Positions 42,380-63,215 of a stretch of DNA of 64,000 bases are shown in pieces. Within the stretch, counting starts at the first letter, position 1. Every line of letters begins with the position of its first letter. The position numbers and the translations under genes are program-made. The notes beneath the pieces were generated by a model, which saw only the letters and a program-made list of their open reading frames with translations, had not been told where the DNA came from and did no database searches. The stretch is taken from contig JBBELK010001011.1 of assembly GCA_037783545.1 (NCBI GenBank), positions 265,293 through 329,292 on the forward strand, given 5' to 3'. Source of the DNA: Henricia sp. BOLD:AAB3569. Its lineage: Eukaryota > Echinodermata > Asteroidea > Spinulosida > Echinasteridae.

Positions 42380-42414
42380 TATGGAATTCCATATGTGCCA
42401 ATCAATCGGTGTCT

Positions 42415-42555
42415 TCTTTTTTTCCAGTCGCATTTTTTTTTTCGTCGCATTTAACTTTGTTGGTCGCATTTGTTTTTCCGTCGCATTTATTTTTTCGTCG
42501 CATTTGATTTTTTTGGTCGCATTTGATTTTTTTCCGTCGCATTTTTTTTTCGACT
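42415..42555. repeat. TCGCATTTT tandem words, left end
   Basis: About nine irregular repeats of gtcgcatttttttt-like words just inside the left terminus; mirrored at 47960-48165. Confidence 0.8.
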
Positions 42556-42774
42556 ACTGCTACTCACGTCTGTTCAAGGCCCATAGAGATAACGGGCACA
42601 GACTATTTTTCTGGGCTTGGACGCGTGATTCCACGCCGCCGGAGTCGAGTAGAATCGATATATTTTGAGGAATCGATTACCTGTAGAAATCGATTACCTG
42701 TAGAAATCGATTCCCTTTTATCTAGAACCAATAAATGAAATGAATGAAATCAAATTAACCCGAAGGCATTTTTC

Positions 42775-43266
42775 TTATGGATCTGACCCCTGAAACACCC
42801 TGATGACTAGCTGAACCTGGTGCATCGTTTGTACTGGTGACGCGCCGTAGATCAACCAGTCGTCCAGGTACATGCAAAGGTTGACACCCTGCAGCCTGAG
42901 GTACGCTCCCACCGCCCTGGTAACCATCGTGAACACCCTGGGCGAAGTGGAAAGCCCGAAGGGGAGGCACGTCCATTTGTACGTCTGGCCCAGGATTTCG
43001 AATCTGAGCCAGTGCTGGTCTAGGGACGAGACCGGGACGTGCAGGTAGGCATCCTTCAAATCGATACTGAGGATGCCCACCTTCCCTTTAGCGGGCAGCG
43101 TAGGATGGACGCAAAAGTCTCCATCCTGAACTTGCGGGGCCGTATGAAACGTTTCATAGTCCCCGGTCTTCTTGGGAGCCAAGAAGAACGTCAACCAAAA
43201 CCCCTCGCGAAATGGGAGGGGAGAGGGGGGGGGGGAGGTCGACCGGAGAGATCGCGCCTTTGGCAA
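42775..43266 (-). pseudogene. DIRS-like reverse transcriptase fragment, left arm
   Basis: Reads SIDLKDAYLHVPV, LPFGLSTSPRVFT and MYLDDWL, the usual DIRS reverse transcriptase blocks. Only the front of the domain is present. Fossil. Confidence 0.8.
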
Positions 43267-43634
43267 GCAGGGCCGAGATCTCTGTCATAAGGATGACATC
43301 CTTCTGACCCCCATCCTGTGGATAAGGGGTAGGTTTCGGTTAAAAAGTCGCTGGGGGTACCGCCGTGAATTCCAGGCGATAACCCCGAGACACAATCTCC
43401 AGAACCCAAGCGCCCGGGGAGCTGAGATGGCTGGCCACTCCGGAGCATACAACCGAATGCGGCCGCCCACCGGAGGTGGTAAGGATCCCGTTACATGAGG
43501 GGATTCCGCGGCCGCCAAGCCCTCAGGACCGACGTTGCTTCCCCTTCTTTGGGCCCTTGCCCTTCGAATTGGGAGGCTGGCCAGACCTGGCCCTGAATTT
43601 CTTCTGAGAAGAACCCGGGGCACCGGACTGCCTG

Positions 43635-45385
43635 GTGTCCTGGGAAGTGCCTGACTTCCCCTGCTTGGCGGGCGTGCCAGAGCTTGCCCTTGCTCGAAGG
43701 TTTTTTGGGAACCAGAAACATTTGCCTGTGCTTGCTTTAGCGCTTGCTCACTCTCAACCCGCTCAGCCAAAGCGAGCAGGGAAGAACAGAACGCGCCTCC
43801 GAAGAGGACGTCCTGTTTCTCAGGCTTGGTCTTCGAGACCTCAGAAGCCAGGTCTGAGCTTAGCGACCAGAGGGAAAAAAATACATTTTACGCCGGAGGG
43901 TCAGCGCCATCGAGGTCTCCGTCTGCCGGGTTACAAGCGCGGCCATTACCATGGCAGCATCGGAGACTTCCGTGGCGGCATCTGCTCTGTCGCCCATAAC
44001 AACCGACGCATGTCGTGGGCGACGATCATGGAGAAGGCGCCTATAGCCGAAGGCTGGAGGACACCGCCAAGTCAAGAAGGCGCAGCTGTTCCTCCCAGAA
44101 GGGAGAGAAGACCGCTGGAGGTCCATTGGTCGACGGTAGCCTAGCGGCGACGTCATGGTCCATGGAGGATGTCCTCAGGAAGGAGTCATAAGCCTAGTCC
44201 GGAATGATCTGGTGAAACCCTTCACCGAGAAAATTCCAGACTTCTGGGGAACAGCCCCGACCTGTCCCACACTATACGAACGTCTGTGGGCAAGGAGCAT
44301 GCCTGGACCCGTGGAGTCGGGAGAAGAGGAAAGCCAAGATCGAGTTGGCCCTTCTCCGCCTACTGCTCGGGCGCACAGGACAAGCCGAGCTTCTCGGTCG
44401 CCCTACGAACCACAGCAGGGGTACACGCTGGAAGAGTGTCCACCTCCTCTGGGTCCATAGTGGCCGCCGGCTGGGCCAGGACGGATGTAGCCTCGTCAGG
44501 AGGATCGTCCGAACCCGAGTCATCCTCACCGCTGCTAGCCTCCGATACATCGAAGGTTAGTGGGCGGTAGGAACCCGCGGAAGACGGGGCAGCCGATGGA
44601 ACCAAAGGAGAATGAGCGGGCGCGCATCCATCTGGGTAGAGGGCGCCGTTCCCGATGGACCTGGGGGCTCGTGAGCCGGCACTGACTGGTCAGCCCCAGT
44701 AGAACGGTTGGGCTGGACCCGACCGAGCCCCAACGATGGCCCAAGCCGGTTCTCCGTAGGCTCGACGCCTCTTGTCCCTGAAGTTACGCTATCCGAGGGA
44801 CGGGGGTCACTTGCGTAACCGCCGTGCTCAGCTCTCATACTTGGGCCTACCGAATCGGCAGTACCCCCTTCCTTTGAAGAGAGAGATGAGTTCCCGTAAC
44901 AACGGTGTGTAGCGGCCCCAACTGACCCAAGACCAGGGGGCGAGCAGCCGGTGGTCGGGTAACGGCGTAGCCATAGTCCAGTGGAGCTTCCGCTAGCGGG
45001 AGCCCCGGTCGAAAACCCGTGCCGGACTGGTCCACCCCGACGTGCCAACCAGGCTGGGGTGTATTGGTTACGTACTGCTGGGCAGCTAACTCCGAAGGGA
45101 CTAGCTGTTGCAGGTACTCAGCACCGGCGGGACCCAGCCAAACTGGCTGACCCGCCTGTGCCCCGGTAGCATAAGCACTAACGTCATGTCCAGCTACCGG
45201 GTCTCCCGCGGTCGGGGACGGTGCAGGAAACCCATCGCTGAACGCGGTCGCGGGTGTACCCGTGTAGACGGTCGAAACTGGCCGGGCCAGTTGGGCCATG
45301 AACGGGAAAGATCCCTGCCGCGGCACACCGCTTCCCGGCCTAAACTGGGTAGGTGTCGGGTGAGCCGGCGGCTGAGGAAACCCTC
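43635..45385 (-). other. Gag-like region, left arm
   Basis: Minus-strand frames rich in Pro, Gly, Ala and Gln (for example AGAEYLQQLVPSELAAQQYV at the 5' end) with a mirror in the right arm. Its position before the reverse transcriptase fits DIRS gag. Fossil, interrupted. Confidence 0.5.
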
Positions 45386-45439
45386 AGAGTCGGACCCCTG
45401 AAAACCTCTAGGTGATTTCACATGGAATGACCCAGCTAT

Positions 45440-47350
45440 GCGGGGTTTCCTCAGCCGCCGGCTCACCCGACACCTACCCAGTTTGGGCCGGGAAGCGGTG
45501 TGCCGCGGCAGGGATCTTTCCCGTTCATGGCCCAACTGACCCGGCCAGTTTCGACCTTCGACCGCGTTCAGCGCAGGGTATCCTGCACCGTCCCCGACCG
45601 CGGGAGACCGGTAGCTGGACATGACGTTGGTGCTTATGCTACCGGGGCACAGGCGGGTCAGCCAGTTTGGCTGGGTCCCGCTGGTGCTGAGTACCTGCCA
45701 CAGATAGTCCCTTCGGAGTTAGCTGCCCAGCAGTACGTAACCAATACACCCCAGCCTGGTTGGCACGTCGGGGTGGACAAGTCCGGCACAGGTTCTCGAC
45801 CGGGGCTCCCGCTAGCGGGAGCTCCACCGGACTATGGCTACGCCGTGACCACCGGCTGCTCGCCCCCCTGGTCTTGGGTCAGTTGGGGCCGCTACCGAAC
45901 GACCTCTGGTTAGCGAGGTACGTAGCACCGTTGTTACGGGAACTCATCTCTCTCTTCAAAGGAAGGGGTACTGTCGATTCGGTAGGCCCAGGTATGAGAG
46001 CTGAGCACGGCGGTTACGCAAGTGACCCCCGTCCCTCGGATAGCGTAACTTCAGGGACAGGAGGCGTCGAGCATACGGAGAACCGGCTTGGGCCATCGTT
46101 GGGGCTCGGTCGGGTCCAGCCCAACCGTTGTACTGGGGCTTACCAGTCAGTGCCGGCTCACGAGCCCCCAGGTCCATCGGGAACGGCGCCCTCTACCCAG
46201 ATGGATGCGCGCCCGCTCCTTCTCCTTTGGTTCCATCAGCTGCCCCGTCTTCCGCGGGTTCCTACCGCCCACTAACCTTCGATGTCTCAGAGGCTAGCAG
46301 CGGTGAGGATGACTCGGGTTCGGACGATCCTCCTGACGAGGCTACATCCGTCCTGGCCCAGCCGGCGGCCACTATGGACCCAGAGAAGGTGGACACTCTT
46401 CCAGCGTGTACCCCTGCTGTGGTGCGTAGGATGACCGAGAAGCTCGGCTTGTCCTGTGCGCCCGAGCACAGGAGAAGGGCCAACTCGATCTCGGCTTTCC
46501 TTTTCTACCGCCTCCACGGGTCCAGGCATATGCTCCTTGCCCCACAGACGTTTTTCTACTGTGGAACAGGTCGGGGGCTGTTCCCCAGAAGTCTGGAATG
46601 TTCTCGGTGAAGGGTTTCACTAGATAATTCCGGACTAGGGAGAAGGCTTATGACTCCTTCCTGAGGACACCCTCCATGGACCATGACGTCGCCGCTAGGC
46701 TACCGTCGACCAAGGGACCTCCAGCAGTCTTCTCTCCCTTCTGGGAGGAACAGCTGCGCTTTCTTGACTTGGCGGTGTCCTCCAGCCTTCGGCTATAGGC
46801 GCCTTCTCCATGATCGTCGCCTACGACATGCGTCTGTTGTTATGGGCGACAGAGCAGATGCCGCTACGGAGGTCTCCGATGCTGCCATGGTAATGGCCGC
46901 GCTTGTAACCCGGCAGACGGAGACCTCGATGGCGCTGAACCTCCGGCGTAAAAATTTATGTTTTTCCCTCTGGTCGCTAAGCTCAGACCTGGCTTCTGAG
47001 GTCTCGAAGACCAAGCCTGAGAAACAGGACGTCCTCTTCGGAGGCGCGTTCTGTTCTTCCCTGCTCGCTTTGGCCGAGCGGTTTGAGAGTGAGCAAGCGC
47101 TAAAGCAAGCACAGGCAAAGGTTTCTGGTTCCCAAAAAACATTCGAGCAAGAAGAGCAAGGGCAAGCGCCCTTCCAGGTTGGAGCTCTGGCACGCCCGCC
47201 AAGTAGGGGAAGTCAGGCACTTCCCAGGACACCAGAAGAAATTCAGGGCCAGGTCTGGCCAGCTTCCCAATTCGAAGGGCAAGGGCCCAAAGAATGGGAA
47301 GCAACGTCGGTCCTGAGGGCTTGGCGGCCGCGGAATCCCCTCATGTAACG
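45440..47350 (+). other. Gag-like region, right arm
   Basis: Plus-strand mirror of the left arm gag-like region: the same AGAEYL-QIVPSELAAQQYV type reading, then long Ser/Pro/Arg-rich frames. Fossil, interrupted. Confidence 0.5.
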
Positions 47351-47390
47351 GGATCCTTACCACCTCCGGTGGGCGGCCGCCTTCGGTTGT

Positions 47391-47765
47391 ATGCTCCGGA
47401 GTGGCCAGCCATCTCAGCTCCCCGGGCGCTTGGGTTCTGGAGATTGTGTCTCGGGGTTATCGCCTGGAATTCACGGCGGTACCCCCAGCGACTTCTTAAC
47501 CGAAACCTACCCCTTATCCACAGGATGGGGGTCAGAAGGATGTCATCCTGATACAGAGGTCTCGGCCCTGCTTGCCAAGGTCTCGTCCCTAGACCAGCGC
47601 TGGCTCAGATTCGAAATCCTGGGCCAGACGTACGAATGGACGTGCCTCCCATTCGGGCTTTCCACTTCGCCCAGGGTGTTCACGATGGTTACCAGGGTGG
47701 TGGGAGCGTACCTCAGGCTGCAGGGTGTCAACCTTTGCATGTACCTGGACGACTGGTTGTTCTAG
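47391..47765 (+). pseudogene. DIRS-like reverse transcriptase fragment, right arm
   Basis: Mirror of the left-arm fragment: LRFEILGQTY, LPFGLSTSPRVFT and MYLDDWL end close to the terminal region. Fossil. Confidence 0.8.
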
Positions 47766-47959
47766 AATCTAGATGAAAGGGAATCGATTTCGACAGGGAA
47801 TCGATTTCTACGGTAATCGATTCCTCAAAAAATATCGAAACGCGATTCGAAGTGGAATCGATTCTTCTCGACTCCGGCGGCGTGGAATCACGCGCCCAAG
47901 CCCAGAAAAATAGTCTGTGACCGTTATCTATATGGGCCTTGAACAGACGTGAGTAGCAG

Positions 47960-48165
47960 TAGTCGAAAAAAACTGCAACGGAAAAAAATAAAATGCGACA
48001 AAAAAAAATGCGACGGAAAAAATAAAGGGGACAAACAAAATTAAATGCGACGAAAAAAAAAATGCGACGAAAACAAAAAATGCGACGAGAAAAAAATGCG
48101 ACGAAAAACAAAATGCGACTAAAAACAAAAATACGACGGGAAAAAAAATGCGACGGGGAAAAAAA
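47960..48165. repeat. AAAATGCGA tandem words, right end
   Basis: Reverse-complement counterpart of the left-end words, with more copies (aaaaaaatgcgacg repeated). Confidence 0.8.
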
Positions 48166-48204
48166 GAAGACGCCGATTGATTGGCACATATGGAATTCCA
48201 TACT

Positions 48205-48232
48205 AATGTGATAACCGCTACACCACGGAATC
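48205..48232 (-). pseudogene. tRNA-Val fragment at the array edge
   Basis: aatgtgataaccgctacacc then acggaatc is the 5' third of a tRNA-Val gene (minus strand). The rest is replaced by the end of the DIRS-like pair. It is followed by the spacer that normally follows the TAC gene. Confidence 0.8.
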
Positions 48233-48324
48233 AGGTCGTGCCATGTGTTCCATTCTTTGTACTGTATTTTAGTGCATCCAAGACGGCAGTAGATGACTAA
48301 TTCCTGCCAAAAGAGATAGATTCA

Positions 48325-48397
48325 TGTGTCCGCTCGGGATCGAACCGGGGACCTTTCGCGTGTGAGGCGAATGTGATAACCGCTACACCACGGAATC
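48325..48397 (-). tRNA. tRNA-Val(CAC), unit 1, acceptor-stem variant
   Basis: Anticodon loop ctcacac gives CAC (reads GUG). The 3' acceptor strand ends cggacac instead of cggaatc, giving two mismatches against gattccg, so this edge copy may be non-functional. Boxes A and B are intact. Confidence 0.85.
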
Positions 48398-48500
48398 TGA
48401 AATTCATAGGTCCGAGGATCAAGTTTTCCGCAGTCACAGCTACAGGTCTGATAATTATTTGAGGACACGGCGTATGGATCCAGAAGGGCAAAATCTAAAG

Positions 48501-48573
48501 TGATTCCGCCCGGGATCGAACCGGGGACCTTTCGCGTGTTAGGCGAACGTGATTACCGCTACACCACGGAATC
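48501..48573 (-). tRNA. tRNA-Val(AAC), unit 1
   Basis: Acceptor gattccg with cggaatc, anticodon stem ttcgc with gcgaa around ctaacac, giving anticodon AAC (read as IAC, decoding GUU, GUC and GUA). T arm ggttcgatcccggg. TTTT lies about 9 nt downstream. Confidence 0.97.
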
Positions 48574-48872
48574 TTGACACGAGTGATGTTCTCTTAATAT
48601 CACACACAATTCCAGCTATGTGGCGTTCTTAGCCCTGTCCACACACGCCAGGTAATCGGTACTTTCCGCCAGTGCAAGTAAAAGAGACTGTAGCCTGGTC
48701 CTTCCGCACACCAACAATTCCAGACACTCTGGTCCGGCCAGTCCATCGTCGTCATGGGATTTTCAGACGCTGACCGACTTACAGTTTGCAGCCTGCCGGT
48801 GAATATGCTGTAGAAGACAATAGTGAGATCAGTCTGTCATAAGAATCGTGGTAAAAACCCTGGTGGATTAAG

Positions 48873-48945
48873 TGATTCCGCTCGGGATCGAACCGAGGAC
48901 CTTTCGCGTGTAAAGCGAATGTGATGACCGCTACACCACGGAATC
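48873..48945 (-). tRNA. tRNA-Val(TAC), unit 1
   Basis: Anticodon loop tttacac gives TAC (UAC, reading GUA and GUG). Acceptor gattccg with cggaatc. T stem carries cctcgg paired with ccgag. TTTTT about 17 nt downstream. Confidence 0.97.
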
Positions 48946-49037
48946 AGGTCGTGCCATGTGTTCCATTCTTTGTACTGTATTTTAGTGCATCCAAGACGGC
49001 AGTAGATGACTAATTCCTGCCAAAAGAGATAGATTCA

Positions 49038-49110
49038 TGATTCCGCTCGGGATCGAACCGGGGACCTTTCGCGTGTGAGGCAAATGTGATAACCGCTACA
49101 CCACGGAATC
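49038..49110 (-). tRNA. tRNA-Val(CAC), unit 2
   Basis: Same as the CAC consensus except tttgc in the anticodon stem, a tolerated G-U pair with gcgaa. Confidence 0.96.
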
Positions 49111-49213
49111 TGAAATTCATAGGTCCGAGGATCAAGTTTTCCGCAGTCACAGCTACAGGTCTGATAATTATTTGAGGACACGGCGTATGGATCCAGAAGG
49201 GCAAAATCTAAAG

Positions 49214-49286
49214 TGATTCCGCCCGGGATCGAACCGGGGACCTTTCGCGTGTTAGGCGAACGTGATTACCGCTACACCACGGAATC
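49214..49286 (-). tRNA. tRNA-Val(AAC), unit 2
   Basis: Identical to the unit 1 AAC gene. Confidence 0.97.
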
Positions 49287-49585
49287 TTGACACGAGTGAT
49301 GTTCTCTTAATATCACACACAATTCCAGCTATGTGGCGTTCTTAGCCCTGTCCACACACGCCAGGTACTCGGTACTTTCCGCCAGTGCAAGTAAAAGAGA
49401 CTGTAGCCTGGTCCTTCCGCACACCAACAATTCCAGACACTCTGGTCCGGCCAGTCCATCGTCGTCATGGGATTTTCAGACGCTGACCGACTTACAGTTT
49501 GCAGCCTGCCGGTGAATATGCTGTAGAAGACAATAGTGAGATCAGTCTGTCATAAGAATCGTGGTAAAAACCCTGGTGGATTAAG

Positions 49586-49658
49586 TGATTCCGCTCGGGA
49601 TCGAACCGAGGACCTTTCGCGTGTAAAGCGAATGTGATGACCGCTACACCACGGAATC
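49586..49658 (-). tRNA. tRNA-Val(TAC), unit 2
   Basis: Identical to the unit 1 TAC gene. Confidence 0.97.
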
Positions 49659-49750
49659 AGGTCGTGCCATGTGTTCCATTCTTTGTACTGTATTTTAGTG
49701 CATCCAAGACGGCAGTAGATGACTAATTCCTGCCAAAAGAGATAGATTCA

Positions 49751-49823
49751 TGATTCCGCTCGGGATCGAACCGGGGACCTTTCGCGTGTGAGGCGAATGT
49801 GATAACCGCTACACCACGGAATC
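49751..49823 (-). tRNA. tRNA-Val(CAC), unit 3
   Basis: Consensus CAC gene with anticodon stem ttcgc and normal acceptor pairing gattccg with cggaatc. Confidence 0.97.
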
Positions 49824-49926
49824 TGAAATTCATAGGTCCGAGGATCAAGTTTTCCGCAGTCACAGCTACAGGTCTGATAATTATTTGAGGACACGGCGTA
49901 TGGATCCAGAAGGGCAAAATCTAAAG

Positions 49927-49999
49927 TGATTCCGCCCGGGATCGAACCGGGGACCTTTCGCGTGTTAGGCGAACGTGATTACCGCTACACCACGAAATC
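49927..49999 (-). tRNA. tRNA-Val(AAC), unit 3
   Basis: AAC gene starting gatttcg, which makes one U-G pair in the acceptor stem. The same variant occurs in unit 5. Confidence 0.95.
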
Positions 50000-50298
50000 T
50001 TGACACGAGTGATGTTCTCTTAATATCACACACAATTCCAGCTATGTGGCGTTCTTAGCCCTGTCCACACACGCCAGGTAATCGGTACTTTCCGCCAGTG
50101 CAAGTAAAAGAGACTGTAGCCTGGTCCTTCCGCACACCAACAATTCCAGACACTCTGGTCCGGCCAGTCCATCGTCGTCATGGGATTTTCAGACGCTGAC
50201 CGACTTACAGTTTGCAGCCTGCCGGTGAATATGCTGTAGAAGACAATAGTGAGATCAGTCTGTCATAAGAATCGTGGTAAAAACCCTGGTGGATTAAG

Positions 50299-50371
50299 TG
50301 ATTCCGCTCGGGATCGAACCGAGGACCTTTCGCGTGTAAAGCGAATGTGATGACCGCTACACCACGGAATC
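50299..50371 (-). tRNA. tRNA-Val(TAC), unit 3
   Basis: Consensus TAC gene. Confidence 0.97.
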
Positions 50372-50463
50372 AGGTCGTGCCATGTGTTCCATTCTTTGTA
50401 CTGTATTTTAGTGCATCCAAGACGGCAGTAGATGACTAATTCCTGCCAAAAGAGATAGATTCA

Positions 50464-50536
50464 TGATTCCGCTCGGGATCGAACCGGGGACCTTTCGCGT
50501 GTGAGGCAAATGTGATAACCGCTACACCACGGAATC
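50464..50536 (-). tRNA. tRNA-Val(CAC), unit 4
   Basis: CAC gene with the tttgc stem variant. Confidence 0.96.
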
Positions 50537-50639
50537 TGAAATTCATAGGTCCGAGGATCAAGTTTTCCGCAGTCACAGCTACAGGTCTGATAATTATTTG
50601 AGGACACGGCGTATGGATCCAGAAGGGCAAAATCTAAAG

Positions 50640-50712
50640 TGATTCCGCCCGGGATCGAACCGGGGACCTTTCGCGTGTTAGGCGAACGTGATTACCGCTA
50701 CACCACGGAATC
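50640..50712 (-). tRNA. tRNA-Val(AAC), unit 4
   Basis: Consensus AAC gene. Confidence 0.97.
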
Positions 50713-51011
50713 TTGACACGAGTGATGTTCTCTTAATATCACACACAATTCCAGCTATGTGGCGTTCTTAGCCCTGTCCACACACGCCAGGTACTCGGTA
50801 CTTTCCGCCAGTGCAAGTAAAAGAGACTGTAGCCTGGTCCTTCCGCACACCAACAATTCCAGACACTCTGGTCCGGCCAGTCCATCGTCGTCATGGGATT
50901 TTCAGACGCTGACCGACTTACAGTTTGCAGCCTGCCGGTGAATATGCTGTAGAAGACAATAGTGAGATCAGTCTGTCATAAGAATCGTGGTAAAAACCCT
51001 GGTGGATTAAG

Positions 51012-51084
51012 TGATTCCGCTCGGGATCGAACCGAGGACCTTTCGCGTGTAAAGCGAATGTGATGACCGCTACACCACGGAATC
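51012..51084 (-). tRNA. tRNA-Val(TAC), unit 4
   Basis: Consensus TAC gene. Confidence 0.97.
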
Positions 51085-51176
51085 AGGTCGTGCCATGTGT
51101 TCCATTCTTTGTACTGTATTTTAGTGCATCCAAGACGGCAGTAGATGACTAATTCCTGCCAAAAGAGATAGATTCA

Positions 51177-51249
51177 TGATTCCGCTCGGGATCGAACCGG
51201 GGACCTTTCGCGTGTGAGGCGAATGTGATAACCGCTACACCACGGAATC
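51177..51249 (-). tRNA. tRNA-Val(CAC), unit 5
   Basis: Consensus CAC gene (ttcgc stem). Confidence 0.97.
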
Positions 51250-51352
51250 TGAAATTCATAGGTCCGAGGATCAAGTTTTCCGCAGTCACAGCTACAGGTC
51301 TGATAATTATTTGAGGACACGGCGTATGGATCCAGAAGGGCAAAATCTAAAG

Positions 51353-51425
51353 TGATTCCGCCCGGGATCGAACCGGGGACCTTTCGCGTGTTAGGCGAAC
51401 GTGATTACCGCTACACCACGAAATC
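51353..51425 (-). tRNA. tRNA-Val(AAC), unit 5
   Basis: AAC gene with the gatttcg start shared with unit 3. Confidence 0.95.
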
Positions 51426-51724
51426 TTGACACGAGTGATGTTCTCTTAATATCACACACAATTCCAGCTATGTGGCGTTCTTAGCCCTGTCCACACACGC
51501 CAGGTAATCGGTACTTTCCGCCAGTGCAAGTAAAAGAGACTGTAGCCTGGTCCTTCCGCACACCAACAATTCCAGACACTCTGGTCCGGCCAGTCCATCG
51601 TCGTCATGGGATTTTCAGACGCTGACCGACTTACAGTTTGCAGCCTGCCGGTGAATATGCTGTAGAAGACAATAGTGAGATCAGTCTGTCATAAGAATCG
51701 TGGTAAAAACCCTGGTGGATTAAG

Positions 51725-51797
51725 TGATTCCGCTCGGGATCGAACCGAGGACCTTTCGCGTGTAAAGCGAATGTGATGACCGCTACACCACGGAATC
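51725..51797 (-). tRNA. tRNA-Val(TAC), unit 5
   Basis: Consensus TAC gene. Confidence 0.97.
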
Positions 51798-51889
51798 AGG
51801 TCGTGCCATGTGTTCCATTCTTTGTACTGTATTTTAGTGCATCCAAGACGGCAGTAGATGACTAATTCCTGCCAAAAGAGATAGATTCA

Positions 51890-51962
51890 TGATTCCGCTC
51901 GGGATCGAACCGGGGACCTTTCGCGTGTGAGGCAAATGTGATAACCGCTACACCACGGAATC
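51890..51962 (-). tRNA. tRNA-Val(CAC), unit 6
   Basis: CAC gene with the tttgc stem variant. Confidence 0.96.
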
Positions 51963-52065
51963 TGAAATTCATAGGTCCGAGGATCAAGTTTTCCGCAGTC
52001 ACAGCTACAGGTCTGATAATTATTTGAGGACACGGCGTATGGATCCAGAAGGGCAAAATCTAAAG

Positions 52066-52138
52066 TGATTCCGCCCGGGATCGAACCGGGGACCTTTCGC
52101 GTGTTAGGCGAACGTGATTACCGCTACACCACGGAATC
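52066..52138 (-). tRNA. tRNA-Val(AAC), unit 6
   Basis: Consensus AAC gene. Confidence 0.97.
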
Positions 52139-52437
52139 TTGACACGAGTGATGTTCTCTTAATATCACACACAATTCCAGCTATGTGGCGTTCTTAGCCC
52201 TGTCCACACACGCCAGGTAATCGGTACTTTCCGCCAGTGCAAGTAAAAGAGACTGTAGCCTGGTCCTTCCGCACACCAACAATTCCAGACACTCTGGTCC
52301 GGCCAGTCCATCGTCGTCATGGGATTTTCAGACGCTGACCGACTTACAGTTTGCAGCCTGCCGGTGAATATGCTGTAGAAGACAATAGTGAGATCAGTCT
52401 GTCATAAGAATCGTGGTAAAAACCCTGGTGGATTAAG

Positions 52438-52510
52438 TGATTCCGCTCGGGATCGAACCGAGGACCTTTCGCGTGTAAAGCGAATGTGATGACCGCTACA
52501 CCACGGAATC
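52438..52510 (-). tRNA. tRNA-Val(TAC), unit 6
   Basis: Consensus TAC gene. Confidence 0.97.
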
Positions 52511-52602
52511 AGGTCGTGCCATGTGTTCCATTCTTTGTACTGTATTTTAGTGCATCCAAGACGGCAGTAGATGACTAATTCCTGCCAAAAGAGATAGATT
52601 CA

Positions 52603-52675
52603 TGATTCCGCTCGGGATCGAACCGGGGACCTTTCGCGTGTGAGGCAAATGTGATAACCGCTACACCACGGAATC
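52603..52675 (-). tRNA. tRNA-Val(CAC), unit 7
   Basis: CAC gene with the tttgc stem variant. Confidence 0.96.
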
Positions 52676-52778
52676 TGAAATTCATAGGTCCGAGGATCAA
52701 GTTTTCCGCAGTCACAGCTACAGGTCTGATAATTATTTGAGGACACGGCGTATGGATCCAGAAGGGCAAAATCTAAAG

Positions 52779-52851
52779 TGATTCCGCCCGGGATCGAACC
52801 GGGGACCTTTCGCGTGTTAGGCGAACGTGATTACCGCTACACCACGGAATC
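52779..52851 (-). tRNA. tRNA-Val(AAC), unit 7
   Basis: Consensus AAC gene. Confidence 0.97.
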
Positions 52852-53150
52852 TTGACACGAGTGATGTTCTCTTAATATCACACACAATTCCAGCTATGTG
52901 GCGTTCTTAGCCCTGTCCACACACGCCAGGTACTCGGTACTTTCCGCCAGTGCAAGTAAAAGAGACTGTAGCCTGGTCCTTCCGCACACCAACAATTCCA
53001 GACACTCTGGTCCGGCCAGTCCATCGTCGTCATGGAATTTTCAGACGCTGACCGACTTACAGTTTGCAGCCTGCCGGTGAATATGCTGTAGAAGACAATA
53101 GTGAGATCAGTCTGTCATAAGAATCGTGGTAAAAACCCTGGTGGATTAAG

Positions 53151-53223
53151 TGATTCCGCTCGGGATCGAACCGAGGACCTTTCGCGTGTAAAGCGAATGT
53201 GATGACCGCTATACCACGGAATC
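53151..53223 (-). tRNA. tRNA-Val(TAC), unit 7
   Basis: TAC gene with one change inside box A (tggtatagcgg instead of tggtgtagcgg). Confidence 0.94.
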
Positions 53224-53315
53224 AGGTCGTGCCATGTGTTCCATTCTTTGTACTGTATTTTAGTGCATCCAAGACGGCAGTAGATGACTAATTCCTGCCA
53301 AAAGAGATAGATTCA

Positions 53316-53388
53316 TGATTCCGCTCGGGATCGAACCGGGGACCTTTCGCGTGTGAGGCAAATGTGATAACCGCTACACCACGGAATC
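53316..53388 (-). tRNA. tRNA-Val(CAC), unit 8
   Basis: CAC gene with the tttgc stem variant. Confidence 0.96.
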
Positions 53389-53491
53389 TGAAATTCATAG
53401 GTCCGAGGATCAAGTTTTCCGCAGTCACAGCTACAGGTCTGATAATTATTTGAGGACACGGCGTATGGATCCAGAAGGGCAAAATCTAAAG

Positions 53492-53564
53492 TGATTCCGC
53501 CCGGGATCGAACCGGGGACCTTTCGCGTGTTAGGCGAACGTGATTACCGCTACACCACGGAATC
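53492..53564 (-). tRNA. tRNA-Val(AAC), unit 8
   Basis: Consensus AAC gene. Confidence 0.97.
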
Positions 53565-53863
53565 TTGACACGAGTGATGTTCTCTTAATATCACACACAA
53601 TTCCAGCTATGTGGCGTTCTTAGCCCTGTCCACACACGCCAGGTAATCGGTACTTTCCGCCAGTGCAAGTAAAAGAGACTGTAGCCTGGTCCTTCCGCAC
53701 ACCAACAATTCCAGACACTCTGGTCCGGCCAGTCCATCGTCGTCATGGGATTTTCAGACGCTGACCGACTTACAGTTTGCAGCCTGCCGGTGAATATGCT
53801 GTAGAAGACAATAGTGAGATCAGTCTGTCATAAGAATCGTGGTAAAAACCCTGGTGGATTAAG

Positions 53864-53936
53864 TGATTCCGCTCGGGATCGAACCGAGGACCTTTCGCGT
53901 GTAAAGCGAATGTGATGACCGCTACACCACGGAATC
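53864..53936 (-). tRNA. tRNA-Val(TAC), unit 8
   Basis: Consensus TAC gene. Confidence 0.97.
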
Positions 53937-54028
53937 AGGTCGTGCCATGTGTTCCATTCTTTGTACTGTATTTTAGTGCATCCAAGACGGCAGTAGATGA
54001 CTAATTCCTGCCAAAAGAGATAGATTCA

Positions 54029-54101
54029 TGATTCCGCTCGGGATCGAACCGGGGACCTTTCGCGTGTGAGGCGAATGTGATAACCGCTACACCACGGAAT
54101 C
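54029..54101 (-). tRNA. tRNA-Val(CAC), unit 9
   Basis: Consensus CAC gene (ttcgc stem). Confidence 0.97.
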
Positions 54102-54204
54102 TGAAATTCATAGGTCCGATGATCAAGTTTTCCGCAGTCACAGCTACAGGTCTGATAATTATTTGAGGACACGGCGTATGGATCCAGAAGGGCAAAATCT
54201 AAAG

Positions 54205-54277
54205 TGATTCCGCCCGGGATCGAACCGGGGACCTTTCGCGTGTTAGGCGAACGTGATTACCGCTACACCACGGAATC
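54205..54277 (-). tRNA. tRNA-Val(AAC), unit 9
   Basis: Consensus AAC gene. Confidence 0.97.
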
Positions 54278-54576
54278 TTGACACGAGTGATGTTCTCTTA
54301 ATATCACACACAATTCCAGCTATGTGGCGTTCTTAGCCCTGTCCACACACGCCAGGTAATCGGTACTTTCCGCCAGTGCAAGTAAAAGAGACTGTAGCCT
54401 GGTCCTTCCGCACACCAACAATTCCAGACACTCTGGTCCGGCCAGTCCATCGTCGTCGTGGGATTTTCAGACGCTGACCGACTTACAGTTTGCAGCCTGC
54501 CGGTGAATATGCTGTAGAAGACAATAGTGAGATCAGTCTGTCATAAGAATCGTGGTAAAAACCCTGGTGGATTAAG

Positions 54577-54649
54577 TGATTCCGCTCGGGATCGAACCGA
54601 GGACCTTTCGCGTGTAAAGCGAATGTGATGACCGCTACACCACGGAATC
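54577..54649 (-). tRNA. tRNA-Val(TAC), unit 9
   Basis: Consensus TAC gene. Confidence 0.97.
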
Positions 54650-54741
54650 AGGTCGTGCCATGTGTTCCATTCTTTGTACTGTATTTTAGTGCATCCAAGA
54701 CGGCAGTAGATGACTAATTCCTGCCAAAAGAGATAGATTCA

Positions 54742-54814
54742 TGATTCCGCTCGGGATCGAACCGGGGACCTTTCGCGTGTGAGGCGAATGTGATAACCGC
54801 TACACCACGGAATC
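54742..54814 (-). tRNA. tRNA-Val(CAC), unit 10
   Basis: Consensus CAC gene (ttcgc stem). Confidence 0.97.
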
Positions 54815-54917
54815 TGAAATTCATAGGTCCGAGGATCAAGTTTTCCGCAGTCACAGCTACAGGTCTGATAATTATTTGAGGACACGGCGTATGGATCCAG
54901 AAGGGCAAAATCTAAAG

Positions 54918-54990
54918 TGATTCCGCCCGGGATCGAACCGGGGACCTTTCGCGTGTTAGGCGAACGTGATTACCGCTACACCACGGAATC
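54918..54990 (-). tRNA. tRNA-Val(AAC), unit 10
   Basis: Consensus AAC gene. Confidence 0.97.
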
Positions 54991-55289
54991 TTGACACGAG
55001 TGATGTTCTCTTAATATCACACACAATTCCAGCTATGTGGCGTTCTTAGCCCTGTCCACACACGCCAGGTAATCGGTACTTTCCGCCAGTGCAAGTAAAA
55101 GAGACTGTAGCCTGGTCCTTCCGCACACCAACAATTCCAGACACTCTGGTCCGGCCAGTCCATCGTCGTCATGGGATTTTCAGACGCTGACCGACTTACA
55201 GTTTGCAGCCTGCCGGTGAATATGCTGTAGAAGACAATAGTGAGATCAGTCTGTCATAAGAATCGTGGTAAAAACCCTGGTGGATTAAG

Positions 55290-55362
55290 TGATTCCGCTC
55301 GGGATCGAACCGAGGACCTTTCGCGTGTAAAGCGAATGTGATGACCGCTACACCACGGAATC
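55290..55362 (-). tRNA. tRNA-Val(TAC), unit 10
   Basis: Consensus TAC gene, the last whole TAC copy. Confidence 0.97.
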
Positions 55363-55454
55363 AGGTCGTGCCATGTGTTCCATTCTTTGTACTGTATTTT
55401 AGTGCATCCAAGACGGCAGTAGATGACTAATTCCTGCCAAAAGAGATAGATTCA

Positions 55455-55527
55455 TGATTCCGCTCGGGATCGAACCGGGGACCTTTCGCGTGTGAGGCGA
55501 ATGTGATAACCGCTACACCACGGAATC
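55455..55527 (-). tRNA. tRNA-Val(CAC), unit 11
   Basis: Consensus CAC gene (ttcgc stem). Confidence 0.97.
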
Positions 55528-55630
55528 TGAAATTCATAGGTCCGAGGATCAAGTTTTCCGCAGTCACAGCTACAGGTCTGATAATTATTTGAGGACACGG
55601 CGTATGGATCCAGAAGGGCAAAATCTAAAG

Positions 55631-55703
55631 TGATTCCGCCCGGGATCGAACCGGGGACCTTTCGCGTGTTAGGCGAACGTGATTACCGCTACACCACGGA
55701 ATC
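55631..55703 (-). tRNA. tRNA-Val(AAC), unit 11
   Basis: Consensus AAC gene. The spacer beyond it carries several changes not seen in inner units. Confidence 0.97.
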
Positions 55704-56002
55704 TTGACACGATTGATGTTCTCTTAACATCACACACAATTCTAGCTATGTGGCGTTCTTAGCACTGTCCACACACGCCAGGTACTCTGTACTTTCCGCC
55801 AGTGCAAGTAAAAGAGACTGTAGCCTGGTCCTTCCGCACACCAAAAATTCCAGACACTCTGGTCCGGCCAGTCCATCGTCGTCATGGGATTTTCAGACGC
55901 TGACCGACTTACAGTTTGCAGCCTGCCGGTGAATATGCTGTAGAAGACAATAGTGAGATCAGTCTGTCATAAGAATCGTGGTAAAAACCCTGGTGGATTA
56001 AG

Positions 56003-56055
56003 TGATTCCGCTCAGGATCGAACCGAGGACCTTTCGAGTGTAAAGCGAATGTGAT
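56003..56055 (-). pseudogene. tRNA-Val(TAC) remnant, unit 11
   Basis: The 3' two thirds of a TAC gene, with substitutions in the T arm (ctcagg) and the anticodon stem (cgag). The 5' acceptor strand and most of the D arm are deleted, joining straight to the next spacer (tgtactgtattttag). Cannot fold as a tRNA. Confidence 0.9.
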
Positions 56056-56092
56056 TGTACTGTATTTTAGTGCATCCAAGACGGCAGTAGAT

Positions 56093-58648
56093 GACTATTT
56101 GCACATCCGTCGACGTTGAGGGCAGCGTAGGAATCTACGCAGTCTCGAGTATAGCAATCCGTCTGGTGGACGTCTGTGTGATCGCTCGGGATAATTAATG
56201 GTTTTGAATTCTCATCCAAGCTGATATATTTCGAGGAAAATGAAAGTGCAGTAGTACCTAGCGTCGAGTTTGGGAGGTTTTGTAAGGCGAAATCAGGTAA
56301 CCAGAGTAATTTAGAGGCATTTAAACACTTGGGAGGTGTGGGCAGCACCAGTATCATTACGGCGGTTTTCAACAATCGTCGTTTACCGCACGTACGGTTG
56401 CACTACGTTGGGATGGAGCCTATACGTTGTGCACATAGTCAAATTGGCTCTTTCTCAACAATGGTAGAGCGCGCTCCAGTAATTCCTTTTGAATTTCCGC
56501 GCGCCTTAAGCAATGCACACCCATTGGGCTTGCGCGTGTATTATAGGCTATAATGCCAATACTGTGTGCGGGTTATGCTGCCTCGTCGTGTTTTATGTAC
56601 CGGACAAGTTTCCAACTGGCACGCTTATTTTAATGTGGTCCAGGGGCACCTCTTTGTGCCAGAGGTCGGGCCTCTGAATCCCAAAGTTAAAGTACCCCGT
56701 TCGCAACAACCTTAAAAAGCGCCGACAACGCCTATGCGCTTTGTCTATGGGAACAAAATCAGAAGAAAACGGAAGAAAAAAAAACTAGAGCTACGTCTGT
56801 TCTATGAACAGAGCGTAGGGCTTTTTCGATTTTTTTTAACTTCAAAAATGAGCATGCTTAGCTTGCAAAAAGTATATAAAGTATTTAATTAAAAAAATGT
56901 TTACCTTTAATGTGTTACCTTTAAAGGATTGATGACGTAATCAATGTTTTAACAATACAGACATGTTTGGTGGTCGACGCACTCTAAATTCACCACTATT
57001 GGGCTAATTTGCGCAAACACTGCTATCAAAGGGTCATTTTAAGACTTTTTAATGTTGCCGCTAGAGGGCACCCTTTTATGGAATGACGTAGAAACTTACA
57101 TTTTTGGAAACCCTATTTACCTTAGACACTAACACTACCAACCGCATCTCGGCAGCTTTCCCCACTTTTACAAAATAGGTTCATTTAAATGCACTTCCGG
57201 TTTCTACCGGAAGTGAGCAAGGTCACAGCGATATTTTTTTGGATACCCCACCCTAGTCGAACTCAAACACCTTTGACCCCATCCAAATACCTCTTACCAG
57301 TTTCAAATGGCAAGGCAAAGTCTGTTTGACCAATAGGGAATGAGGTCAAATGTGAAGGCATGTGGGCATCTGAAAGACCTTATTAATGATCGTATATGCC
57401 GAAAGAATCAAGATCGTAGGTCAAACGGTTGATTTTTTATGAATTTTTGCATATGGAAACATTAAATTTCATGCCCCTTTAAACTTACACCTGATGACGT
57501 CATGATGACGCCATTGTTGGGTGCACACCTCTTCTACTATGTCTTTGATGTTACCAAGTTTGTTTAAGAACAACCTCAAGTTTGGGAACAACCTCAAAAA
57601 GTGCCGACAACGCCCATGCGTTATGTCAATGGGGAAAACATCAGAAGAAGAAATAAACGGAAAAGCCAAAAGTTAACGACCTTTGCTAGTGATCGTATAT
57701 GGGAAGGAATCAAGGTTGTAGCTCGCATTTGTTAATATTTCATATTTATAATATTTGTATCACCTTTAATCTGACACGTGATGACGTCATTATGAGATCA
57801 TCAGTTAAATACCTTTGTTAATTACCGTATATGGCGCAGGAATCACGATCATAGGTGAATCGGCTGATTTGTTACGAATGTTTGAATATGGAAAACATTA
57901 AATTGTATGCTCATTTAATCTTATACCTGATGATGAACCGTTTTTGAGTTGTGTCAGTTTGCCTGAGTGTACTGCTATACAGATCTGCCACTTCCAAGTG
58001 TTTGATGAACTGTGAGATACCAAGTCATGGCGCAGGTAAAAACTTTTGATTACTTAATTAGCTGCTTGAGGAGTATCATAACATGTATGTTCAGGATTTA
58101 TACTAAGAGAGTCTTGGGCCAAATTTCATATAAAACAAAATAACATGTACATTATGTAAACAGTACAGTTACCTTCATCGATTGAGAAAAGATTTGTTTA
58201 GATTTGAAAATATGGCAATTTTCAGTGTTTGCACTTTTAAAAACATCAATTTGGTTACTGTAAAATTAGTACTATTTGTAATAATGTCACATGGGCGTTA
58301 TAAATTAAATATTTAAAAAGTTTATCCTGAAAACTCAGTTTAGAGGCAAGTTTGATTTCCCTTTGCGAATTCTAAACTGTTCATTTTTAGTTTGTTTTGT
58401 TCACATCTGGGACGGAAACGCGATGTTTACTCGAAATACTGATATACATATATTAGTCATCAAAGGCAGAAATCAGAGCACATAATTAGTTTAATTGAAA
58501 AGAGTTTGGCCAAGGAGGACAATTTCGTAATTAGATTTTTAAAAGATGGTTCAATAAAATCCAGACAATGACTTAATTATTTCAGGCCTATATTTAGCTT
58601 TTGTTTTTAAATGGGACGTGCACTGCATGTTCGCGCAACTTACAACAA
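56093..58648. other. Region between the tRNA array and the Ngaro-like element
   Basis: No gene recognised. It holds diverged repeats. Block caacaacct-aaaa-agcgccgacaacgc occurs near 56705 and again near 57585. A block reading gatcgtatatg, aaggaatcaagatcgta, catatggaaacattaaattt and acctgatgacgtcat occurs at about 57380-57510, 57685-57800 and 57820-57935. Confidence 0.55.
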
Positions 58649-58730: not shown

Positions 58731-58910
58731 TTTTATTCATCTTGTTAAACATTTAACAATTCTTCAATACAGAAATCCGTAAGTCAGTCTGATATGGTAA
58801 GACCAACAATTTTCCATTATGAATAAATATACAACATAACTCGCTTGTAATTAAAAAACAAAAACGAGAAAGCATATTGCCCAAAATTCTACCAAACGAT
58901 ACACGCAGAT

Positions 58911-59331
58911 TACCGTCAATGCGACGTACATGGGCACCAGACTAAAGCTACAGCTAGCTCCGAGTCGTTGGTCACCAAGCTAAAACCAAGCTCCGAGCTA
59001 ATTACTCGTCAATGCGACGTACATGGGCACCAGACTAAAGCTGCAGCTCCGAGTCATTGGTCACCAAGCTAAAACCAAGCTCCGAGCTAATTACTCGTCA
59101 ATGCGACAAACATGGGCACCAGACTAAAGCTGCAGCCCCGAGTCAATGGTCACCAAGCTAAAACCAAGCTCCAAGCTAATTGCTCGTCAATGCGACGTAC
59201 ATGGGCACCAGACTAAAGCTACAGCTCCGAGTCAATGGTCACCAAGCTAAAACCATGCTCCAAGCTAATTACTCGTCAATGCGACAAACATGGGCACCAG
59301 ACTAAAGCTCTCAGCTCCAAGTCGATGGAGA
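58911..59331. repeat. 89-bp satellite, about 4.7 copies
   Basis: Unit starting gtcaatgcgacgtacatggg, then caccagactaaagctgcagc, and ending ccgagctaattactc. Unit starts at 58915, 59008, 59097, 59186 and 59275 (first interval 93, then 89). Lies between A2 and B2 of the Ngaro-like element. Confidence 0.9.
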
Positions 59332-59924: not shown

Positions 59925-60986
59925 TCAGAGACCCAAGGATGAACTTACAGACAATTTAGAATCGATACAGTCCTTTACATACATATCTTTCGCTGTCTCG
60001 CTTACCCAGCGACCGTGAGACTTGAAAAGTCGATCAGGTACTCCTGCATTGGCTGCGGCTGTAGCGCCGCCTGACCTTAGGCTATGAAGACCATACAAAC
60101 TTTTGTTTAAACCGACACTTTCGAGTTTTTCTAGAAAGATCTCTCTAGCCCTTGTGTATGAGAGCGGAACATTGTTTGCTCTTAAGGCAGACCCATTGGG
60201 AGTGAGTGCACGGAATAAATATAACTCAGAGTCCATTGGACTGAACAAACCTATTCTCATTAGATACAATTTCAGTCGTTCATGAGGACAAAGCTCTGAG
60301 AAGGTTTTAGCAATAAAAACCGTATTTCCCTGACGAAATTGATCTGTTTTACACTTCTCGATAAAAATGGTCAAGTGGTGATCAAATAATTTAACATCAC
60401 ATCTCTTTATGGAACGTAATTCGTCATATCTAAGGAAACCAGAGAAAGCTAAAAGACACATAGTCATAAATCTCAAATTGATCAGGGGTGCAGATGGCTT
60501 TCCATACATATTGTTTAACAGAAGTAGGATATCCACACTTAAAGGCTCTTTCGCATTTTTTGGTTTGCAAAGTGACCTGCGAGCAGAATCTCTGATTGAT
60601 TTGACAACCCTAGATTCACATGGGTTAAACAACCCGCAATTTGAACAAAAACTATATATCCAACTTATGGCATAGTACGCTGCATCAATTTGTGCAGGTG
60701 AACTACTTGTCTGGGATAACGAGATCAAGTATAAAGAAAAATATAACGGGTCGACTGGGAAAGGTTTTACACCTGGATACAATTCTGTCCATTCCCTCCA
60801 TCTCATATAGGCATAGCTGTACTTTCTCGTAGTTGCATTTGCTCTGGACGCAGTTAAGGTGTGCTTCAATTGATTGAACAGCGCTTTCAGAGATGGATGG
60901 GATAAGGCTTTCCCGGCCAACCAGAGACCGTCTACTTTCTCGATATCTGAAAAAAATAATAGCCATGTAAAGAAAAATAACATCAA
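59925..60986 (-). CDS. Tyrosine recombinase ORF of the Ngaro-like element
   Basis: 353 codons. An N-terminal SAM-like half (RKYSYAYMRWREW), then FSGFLRYDELRSI, HSLRSGGATAAANAG and a closing HGRWVSETAKDMYV give the expected recombinase boxes in order. This family inserts its circular DNA by site-specific recombination instead of a DDE integrase. Part of a fossil element. Confidence 0.85.
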   Translation of the reverse strand: MMLFFFTWLLFFSDIEKVDGLWLAGKALSHPSLKALFNQLKHTLTASRANATTRKYSYAYMRWREWTELYPGVKPFPVDPLYFSLYLISLSQTSSSPAQIDAAYYAISWIYSFCSNCGLFNPCESRVVKSIRDSARRSLCKPKNAKEPLSVDILLLLNNMYGKPSAPLINLRFMTMCLLAFSGFLRYDELRSIKRCDVKLFDHHLTIFIEKCKTDQFRQGNTVFIAKTFSELCPHERLKLYLMRIGLFSPMDSELYLFRALTPNGSALRANNVPLSYTRAREIFLEKLESVGLNKSLYGLHSLRSGGATAAANAGVPDRLFKSHGRWVSETAKDMYVKDCIDSKLSVSSSLGL

Positions 60987-60991
60987 TTAAA

Positions 60992-61811
60992 TTAATATTT
61001 TAAGTTCAATACAAGAACGTTGGAAATAAATGGAGAATTACAGAAAACTGAAGAATCATGTGACCCCGGTTGAAAAAATCCGGTTGGTCGGACATACTCT
61101 ACAAGATCAATAGCTACACTACCGTTTATAACGTTGGCTATTAACGGCCAAAAGTAGGCGCTGTGCCATTTATGCACTACTAATGTACCCGAGCACTTGT
61201 ATTGATGCATGAATGCAAGCAATTTGCCAATCATACTGACTGGGGGAACAAGCCAGCTATTAAAAGTGTGAAAATCATGGGCAAACGCATCAATACCGGC
61301 TGTACCCGGGCACCAATACTTAGAGAAAAACCGCGATACTTTGGAGTTGTGGTTATTTGCAAAAGCATCTAATTCATATGGGCCCCAACGTCTGTTAAAA
61401 AGAGTAAAGACCGACTGAGAAACGCCCCAGTCATCATAGTCCACAATTCTGCTGATGTGGTCTGCTTTGTCATTGAGGCTGCGTACGTGGGATCCATTCG
61501 GGAAAAAATATTAATATTTTTCTCTAGACAAAACGTGACTATGGCTAAAACCAATTGTTGCAGATCGACCTCCATGCTACCCGTCGACAAGATCGTAGCA
61601 ACATTATGGCTGTCAGTGTACCATTTAACGTAAGTATTTGCTAAATCGTCAGCCCTTGATATTAGGATAATAAAAACAGCCTTCAGTTCTCTCCAGGCCG
61701 AACTCTTTTTCTGTTCGACCGGGGAGAATACATCGTAACAGGGGTGATCGTCAACATTTACAATGTACCCTCCGCATGCATATTGAGAAGCGTCACTATA
61801 TACAACCCTTG
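60992..61811 (-). other. RNase H and linker region of the Ngaro-like element
   Basis: Readable stretches such as GPYELDAFANNHNSKVSRFF and YWCPGTAGIDAFAHDF fit the post-RNase H part of DIRS/Ngaro polyproteins. Not a single open frame; part of a fossil element. Confidence 0.65.
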
Positions 61812-63215
61812 TTAATCTAGGATTACTCTCTGTAGGGAGACTCCGTTACATTTCAACAGCTGTTTTCTCCAAAATTGCAATTCGTATAAACCAGCGCTAT
61901 CAATGTGCAGTGGGCTGTCCCATGCACGCCTGTTCGCTATCAGTACTTGTAAGCATTTGGTCATGAGTATTGCAATGTTACCAACGCCAGGTCGGCATGC
62001 GACTAAACGACCGACCAATTGTGCAACAATCCTAGCTGTAACACTAGCATTAGAGAGGGTCGTTTGGATAAGTGAATCTAACATGTCCAAAATATCAGTA
62101 ATTTTCGATAAGGGAACCGAAATAGTAAACCGCTTTGTATCTATAACAAAACCTAACCAGGTGAGACTCTGAATGGGGAACCAATTAGATTTTTGTTCAT
62201 TAACGATAAAACCAGCATTACGCAAGTCATTTGAAACAGTATCGGCCTGCTTTGTAAGTTGTTGTTCATTTGTATTGGCCACTATACCGTCATCTAAATA
62301 CAATACAATGGCAATACCTAGTCGGCGCCATCGCTTTACCAAAGGCCTTAACAATTTAGTGAAAATATGACAAGCTGTAGACAGGCCGAAGGGTAGAACC
62401 TTAAAAACAAAATATCGACTTGTTTTGGAATTGGCAAATTGCCAAGAAAACCCGAGATATTTGCAATGTGGACTACAAATCTCAACGTGGTGATAACCCG
62501 ACTTTAAGTCGAATGAGAACATGTAGGAGTTTGGTTCCAAGTATTGCTTTAGAATTTTTAGGTCTTCGTATTTCACTGGTAAATAATCCAAGTGCTTGTT
62601 AACTTCTCGAAGGTCCAAAATCAATCTGCACTTGCCAGAACGATTGGTGGAAACACTCAAAGGGTTAACGACAGTTGGGGGAGAAAAAACCTCTTCAACT
62701 AAATCATTAACCAGTAATTCAGCTATGGCAGACTCTACAAAGACTGAATTTTCTTTCGCTGAACGATTATTGGAAAGAAAACACGAATTAGGTATTGATA
62801 AGAATGGCAATTTATAACCTAGCTCAATGGTCTGCAAAATAAATCGGGAGGACTCTATTTCTCTCCAAGAGGGGAGACCTTTAAGGAGACTACCACGCAA
62901 AGGTAACAATTTCGTTGGAACATTAACGTTGAAATCAATACTTTCTCTGAACCCTAGATCTGTGAACACATCATTGAGAACAGCAAAATCACTTATCTTA
63001 TCATCTACAGTGTTCTGTACTCGGTTAAGCTGAGGGTTGGGTAGAACTTCCGGGACCAATGGTGTAGGCTTTTGCCCAATGTCCTTGTTGCCCACAGCGG
63101 AAGCAGTACCCTCTTTCTTGGGCGCGTCTGGATACCCCTGCAATGGCGCCTCGTGCAGGGGCGGTGTTACGAAAGGGCCTCCAAGGGGCAGGACTTGGTC
63201 TGGACCCCCCAGCAT
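61812..63215 (-). CDS. Reverse transcriptase ORF of the Ngaro-like element
   Basis: 467 codons. Visible blocks in order: LILDLREVNKHLDYLP, FSFDLKSGYHHVEI, KVLPFGLSTACHIFTKLLRP, VLYLDDGIVAN and WLGFVIDT, a tyrosine-recombinase-type reverse transcriptase leading into RNase H. Part of a fossil element. Confidence 0.88.
   Translation of the reverse strand: MLGGPDQVLPLGGPFVTPPLHEAPLQGYPDAPKKEGTASAVGNKDIGQKPTPLVPEVLPNPQLNRVQNTVDDKISDFAVLNDVFTDLGFRESIDFNVNVPTKLLPLRGSLLKGLPSWREIESSRFILQTIELGYKLPFLSIPNSCFLSNNRSAKENSVFVESAIAELLVNDLVEEVFSPPTVVNPLSVSTNRSGKCRLILDLREVNKHLDYLPVKYEDLKILKQYLEPNSYMFSFDLKSGYHHVEICSPHCKYLGFSWQFANSKTSRYFVFKVLPFGLSTACHIFTKLLRPLVKRWRRLGIAIVLYLDDGIVANTNEQQLTKQADTVSNDLRNAGFIVNEQKSNWFPIQSLTWLGFVIDTKRFTISVPLSKITDILDMLDSLIQTTLSNASVTARIVAQLVGRLVACRPGVGNIAILMTKCLQVLIANRRAWDSPLHIDSAGLYELQFWRKQLLKCNGVSLQRVILD

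Follow-up and report, generated by a model that had tools for sequence, protein, structure and literature searches.

Tandem tRNA gene arrays, such as the 3.18-kb tRNA repeat of Xenopus, are a known kind of gene amplification. The array described here lies in a 64,000-nucleotide stretch of DNA (the window; contig JBBELK010001011.1, positions 265,293 to 329,292, forward strand) from the sea star Henricia sp. BOLD:AAB3569. It consists of eleven 713-bp units whose tRNA genes are all for valine, a make-up which is an unusual variant of the known arrays and not a new system. Among the closest described systems are the Entamoeba arrays, in which up to five tRNA genes per unit are reported (PMC2652664). 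According to Table 1 of that work, proline genes with the anticodons CGG, AGG and TGG share one unit in E. terrapinae [SPPP] and E. moshkovskii [SPPPCK], and valine CAC and GAC genes occur together in E. invadens [FVV5]. The Henricia array resembles these in its short tandem multi-tRNA units, uniform copies and several isoacceptors per unit. However, the multi-isoacceptor units described there for Entamoeba also include genes of other amino acids or 5S RNA, whereas the Henricia unit holds valine genes alone, and the Entamoeba valine set given there is CAC, GAC and TAC in contrast to CAC, AAC and TAC in this array. The degree of newness that the preliminary description had assigned to a unit with one amino acid's full set was therefore too high, as three proline isoacceptors are already present in the E. 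terrapinae and E. moshkovskii units.

Similar architectures are described also in plants and human. The Ser-Tyr-Tyr (SYY) and tRNA-Pro clusters on Arabidopsis chromosome 1, as presented in section 7 of PMC12308677, share with the Henricia array the tandem multi-gene unit, the uniform core and pseudogenes towards the ends, but they hold two amino acids or one anticodon family. The human 1q23.3 tRNA variable-number tandem repeat is likewise composed of multi-tRNA tandem units, which are 98% identical and variable in copy number; unlike the unit studied here, its 7.3-kb unit is described with five tRNA genes (Leu, Gly, Glu, Gly, Asp) on both strands (PMC4041453). In homogeneous tDNA clusters, neighbours of the same amino acid are less than 1000 nt apart (Bermudez-Santana et al. 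2010, PMC2888827). The Henricia array is such a cluster, with 32/32 genes for valine and a largest gap of 299 nt between whole neighbours, but most such clusters are small, in contrast to the strict three-gene unit in eleven copies found here. In plants, 220 tandem pairs whose genes share the amino acid but not the anticodon are listed, with valine among them (PMC12652284). No description of a tandem unit consisting of one amino acid's complete set alone was recognised in the portions of the open-access literature searched, which is no proof of absence. The feature that stands out at this locus is that its unit is limited to the complete set of a single amino acid.

With ARAGORN, 32 whole tRNA-Val genes were determined in the window (11 CAC, 11 AAC and 10 TAC), every one of them on the minus strand, and tRNA genes other than valine were found nowhere in it. 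The whole genes span 48325-55703 and their order along the plus coordinates is strictly CAC-AAC-TAC. In a laxer search of 47950-56400, the Rfam tRNA model matched 32/32 genes above its gathering score, the weakest match being the CAC gene of unit 1 (44.9 bits compared with the gathering score of 29); the default filters over the whole window recovered just 13 of them. The period was exactly 713 bp, with a lag-713 identity of 0.99 over 48201-56100, and among the lags of 50-2999 only 713, 1426, 2139 and 2852 exceeded an identity of 0.6. Of the 713 bp in each unit, 219 are gene sequence and the rest falls into three spacers (103, 299 and 92 bp), and the tRNA gene units follow each other head to tail with uniform spacers, as in tandem tRNA gene arrays. 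Chance or reading error as the source of the array was ruled out by the eleven units at 99% identity together with the ARAGORN and Rfam matches.

The preliminary description had placed eleven 713-bp units, each with AAC, CAC and TAC genes, at 48233..56092. The period, the number of units and the location agreed with the present analysis; the true span, with edges set by blastn of the flanks, is slightly wider, 48205-56100, and the valine set is whole in ten of the eleven units, the eleventh TAC gene being broken. The further proposal that each unit carries a full valine set covering the GUN codons, amplified in step, was borne out by the ARAGORN calls and the lag-713 identity. By wobble reading of these codons, AAC as inosine-34 (I34), CAC and TAC constitute the full eukaryotic valine set. 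A partial unit is found at each edge of the array. The left one (48205..48324, minus strand) begins within a tRNA gene, with the 28-nt 5' part of a valine tRNA gene whose sequence is as in CAC and one base from TAC, followed by the spacer found upstream of TAC in full units. When one unit was compared with the rest of the window by blastn, only a 22-bp match with an E value of 0.46 was obtained.

Units 1-10 differ pairwise at 0-6 of 713 positions. Nine sites are variable among them, 5/219 in genes and 4/494 in spacers (Fisher p = 0.14), which upholds the earlier observation that the spacers are as conserved as the genes. Since the genes vary no less than the spacers, the uniformity points to recent copying or ongoing homogenisation and not to selection on each copy. 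Unit 1 (48325..49037) has its CAC, AAC and TAC genes at 48325-48397, 48501-48573 and 48873-48945, respectively. Units 2 and 3 (49038..50463) form a 1426-bp block that is identical to units 4 and 5 (50464..51889), with no differences between 2 and 4 or between 3 and 5. In the block of units 6, 7 and 8 (51890..54028), units 6 and 8 are identical. As a tandem identical dimer also arose in 3387 of 100000 shuffles of the unit order, the identical dimers are moderate evidence of exchange. Units 9 and 10 occupy 54029..55454, with unit 10 matching the consensus. At sites 44 and 330 all four combinations are present, the fourth from unit 11 alone, which implies exchange or recurrent change.

The last unit changes in the course of its length. 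Unit 11 at the right edge is identical to the consensus over its 258 innermost positions, then has 9 differences in the next 342, after which 45 bp are lost inside the TAC gene. Its part up to TAC (55455..56002) includes whole CAC (55455-55527) and AAC (55631-55703) genes and a spacer, labelled B, with 7 differences from consensus; the remainder (56003..56100) holds the broken TAC gene, the remnant of which extends to about 56055, and the remnant of spacer C after the 45-bp deletion. Unequal exchange is expected to leave such a pattern, in which the core is uniform and the ends are decayed. The recurrence of units 2-3 as 4-5 and the last unit homogenised on its inner side only point to repeated unequal exchange in the array. 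The 0-6 pairwise differences, the four-gamete result and the edge gradient represent concerted evolution within one genome.

The representative genes of unit 10 are located on the minus strand at 54742..54814 (CAC), 54918..54990 (AAC) and 55290..55362 (TAC). Between any two of the three gene types only 4-6 of 73 sites differ, and pair 13-22 is missing in all three. The commonest AAC (9/11) and TAC (9/10) genes have no defect other than this missing pair. In cloverleaf pairing, a C50.A64 mismatch in the T-stem was detected in 11/11 CAC genes, in contrast to C50-G64 in AAC and U50-A64 in TAC. The cloverleaf energy of CAC was -16.0 kcal/mol compared with -23.1 and -21.1 kcal/mol for AAC and TAC, respectively, and the corresponding Rfam scores of the commonest or unmarked forms were 58.2, 62.6 and 65.0 bits. 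The mismatch weakens the CAC member of the set. As unit 11 carries it too, C50.A64 either arose before the unit spread or was spread through it. The CAC gene is furthermore mosaic: at positions 26 and 64 it resembles TAC, at 32 and 50 AAC. Either a patch copied from one isoacceptor gene into another by conversion or an ordinary pair change caught midway could account for this, and four sites are too few to choose between the two. Individual copies have additional changes: the CAC gene of unit 1 has lost acceptor-stem pairs 2-71 and 3-70, five CAC copies have a U29.G41 wobble pair, two AAC copies have U5.G68, and the TAC gene of unit 7 has an A12.C23 mismatch. Free RNA folding gave z-scores of -0.57 to -1.79 for seven genes, with the full cloverleaf as the minimum for the TAC consensus gene only; these weak values were dropped as evidence of function.

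Matches to the A-box and B-box consensus were found in 32/32 genes. TTTT starts 12, 7 and 15 nt past the CAC, AAC and TAC genes, respectively, in every whole copy. Owing to the background rate of TTTT in 25-nt stretches, 60/419 in the spacers and 353/1679 in window positions 1-42000, the three-for-three occurrence downstream of the genes is suggestive but not strong. The observed/expected ratio of CpG was 1.07 in the array and 0.84 in window positions 1-42000.

Judged from the sequence, the locus is probably (at about 0.72) a nuclear RNA polymerase III (Pol III) tRNA gene array that expanded through unequal crossover and gene conversion, and its valine-only content would go back to ancient duplication in the neighbourhood combined with a change of anticodon. 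The observed part of this account comprises the units and their intact genes, the promoters with T-runs and the marks of exchange. Each gene, if active, would be read alone by the polymerase, with its promoter signals in the internal A and B boxes and a T-run of its own as the end point, and the products would be three valine tRNAs reading the GUN codons. Three related valine genes may have been brought together by local duplication with anticodon change, their spacers having long diverged since. The 713-bp block would then have been multiplied by unequal crossover, and crossover together with gene conversion would uphold its uniformity except at the edges, which would have escaped and decayed. 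In that event the valine-only content would be a by-product of descent. The valine tRNA pool would be raised by the array to an extent that scales with how many units are active. Local duplication with anticodon change is described as common for tRNA genes of the same isoacceptor class (PMC4981973), and it would be the simplest source of a valine-only unit. Two observations weigh against the account. The three spacers have no mutual similarity beyond an 8-bp match, so that the sequence gives no direct sign of one gene having been duplicated locally; separate genes that converged are a possible alternative source of the unit. In addition, the C50.A64 mismatch of CAC questions whether all three products are sound. 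The origin of the unit by a recent duplication of gene and spacer together was unsupported, given the unrelated spacers.

The preliminary description had proposed that the arrangement keeps the isoacceptor ratio fixed as the copy number changes. As a selected stoichiometric module, one valine set per unit would hold this ratio, for example for a tissue making a valine-rich protein. The unit does indeed contain the three eukaryotic valine isoacceptors and not a single tRNA gene besides, and the Arabidopsis Ser-Tyr-Tyr array is described as switched on in root cap cells, with its deletion altering the accumulation of a Ser/Tyr/Pro-rich glycoprotein (in the account of PMC12308677). However, the genes are no more conserved than the spacers, and the ratio here is 11:11:10 (CAC:AAC:TAC) as a result of the TAC gene lost in unit 11. 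CAC is structurally the weakest member and is damaged further in unit 1, and with its T-stem mismatch fixed in all 11 copies, the array hardly resembles a dosage module that selection has tuned. As each gene has its own promoter and T-run, the gene ratio need not equal the tRNA ratio. The fixed-ratio idea is possible but unsupported, and such a module seems quite unlikely. An equally improbable proposal would be that the locus is dedicated to valine supply and that gene conversion, acting between units and also from one isoacceptor to another, keeps the isoacceptors alike; the CAC mosaic and C50.A64 would then mark one such conversion, and the array would remake its own isoacceptors as a copy-number dial for valine decoding. 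The same CAC mismatch, together with the lower cloverleaf stability of CAC, would fit an array that is for the most part silent or in decay, owes its amplification to repeat dynamics and lies mostly in heterochromatin, while dispersed valine genes would provide the working tRNAs. The broken edge genes, the repeat-rich flanks with retrotransposon pieces and the mostly methylated and repressed state reported for clustered plant tDNAs (PMC11700998) are in line with such silencing. The AAC and TAC consensus genes are, however, free of defects beyond the 13-22 non-pair common to all three types, the promoters and T-runs are intact in 32/32 genes, and the CpG ratio of the array compared with that of positions 1-42000 gives no hint of long methylation-driven CpG loss, which leaves a silent array possible but less likely than not.

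The copy number itself might be in part an artefact of assembly, wrongly expanded or collapsed, as the identity of units 2-3 with 4-5 over 1426 bp and of unit 6 with unit 8 would allow. Since other units hold private or shared variants, both edges have breaks of a sort that no assembler would invent and the window is without any N, this is unlikely. The left edge of the array is adjoined by an imperfect 5.8-kb palindrome (42380..48202), a neighbour outside the unit, with inverted copies of a reverse-transcriptase fragment. Its closest arms are 59 nt apart and are 95.8% identical over 2621 aligned columns, with 581 gap columns. At the outer ends, 42380-42425 matches 48157-48202 and TATGGAATTCCATA terminates both sides. 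This palindrome might have driven the amplification, by breaks in a cruciform-prone repeat and their repair through unequal exchange, or its insertion might have removed the left part of the array. The pairing of its outer ends and the start of the array at 48205, inside a tRNA gene, would be consistent with such a role, but the relation is one of adjacency only, with no empty site or relative found. As the arm identity is 95.8% and units 1-10 differ at no more than 6 of 713 positions, the palindrome and the array may differ in age, and a causal role of the palindrome appears improbable. A mobile element carrying the array was rejected, since no flank similarity that would make terminal repeats of the array was seen. 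Exact patterns of the tRNA and of one spacer gave 0 matches in viral, bacterial and archaeal contig collections, which says little here because of what these collections hold.

If the unit were common to other species, it would offer a clean case for distinguishing isoacceptor ratios set by linked amplification from ratios merely following repeat turnover, as the copy number of the three genes changes jointly and the array transcripts carry marks. These marks, U29 in CAC and U5 in AAC, are such that array transcripts could be distinguished by them in small-RNA data. At present the locus is mainly one more unusual tRNA array example in an animal-like genome.

The surroundings of the array, in what appears to be a nuclear animal genome, are rich in repeats. 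An A/T-rich minisatellite (ATGCGACGAAAA-like) is located close to both ends of the palindrome, and TA flanks it on each side, as a target duplication or by chance. A reverse-transcriptase match was found at 42775-43284 in one arm, a part of which recurs inverted in the other. To the right of the array, an 89-bp tandem repeat of 4.7 copies (58909-59328) separates it from minus-strand open frames at 59925-63796, which we take to be a DIRS-type retrotransposon. Pfam, which covered 30 chosen open frames of the window, gave RVT_1 (68.2 bits), Dam (29.7 bits) and a below-cut-off Phage_integrase match (19.6 bits) in these frames. On the plus strand, an aldehyde dehydrogenase gene interrupted by introns was detected in pieces at 3852-4187 (below the Pfam cut-off), 6403-6864, 9477-9824 and 13858-14103, the best frame being closest to chains named retinal dehydrogenase 2. 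Two arrays of 21-bp units at 4682-4824 and 5664-5801 are about 840 bp apart, and their consensus units look mutually inverse-complementary. Several small arrays of GGGATCCC/CCGG-type units are present at 16189-18023, including one with a 31-bp unit in 4.8 copies at 96%.

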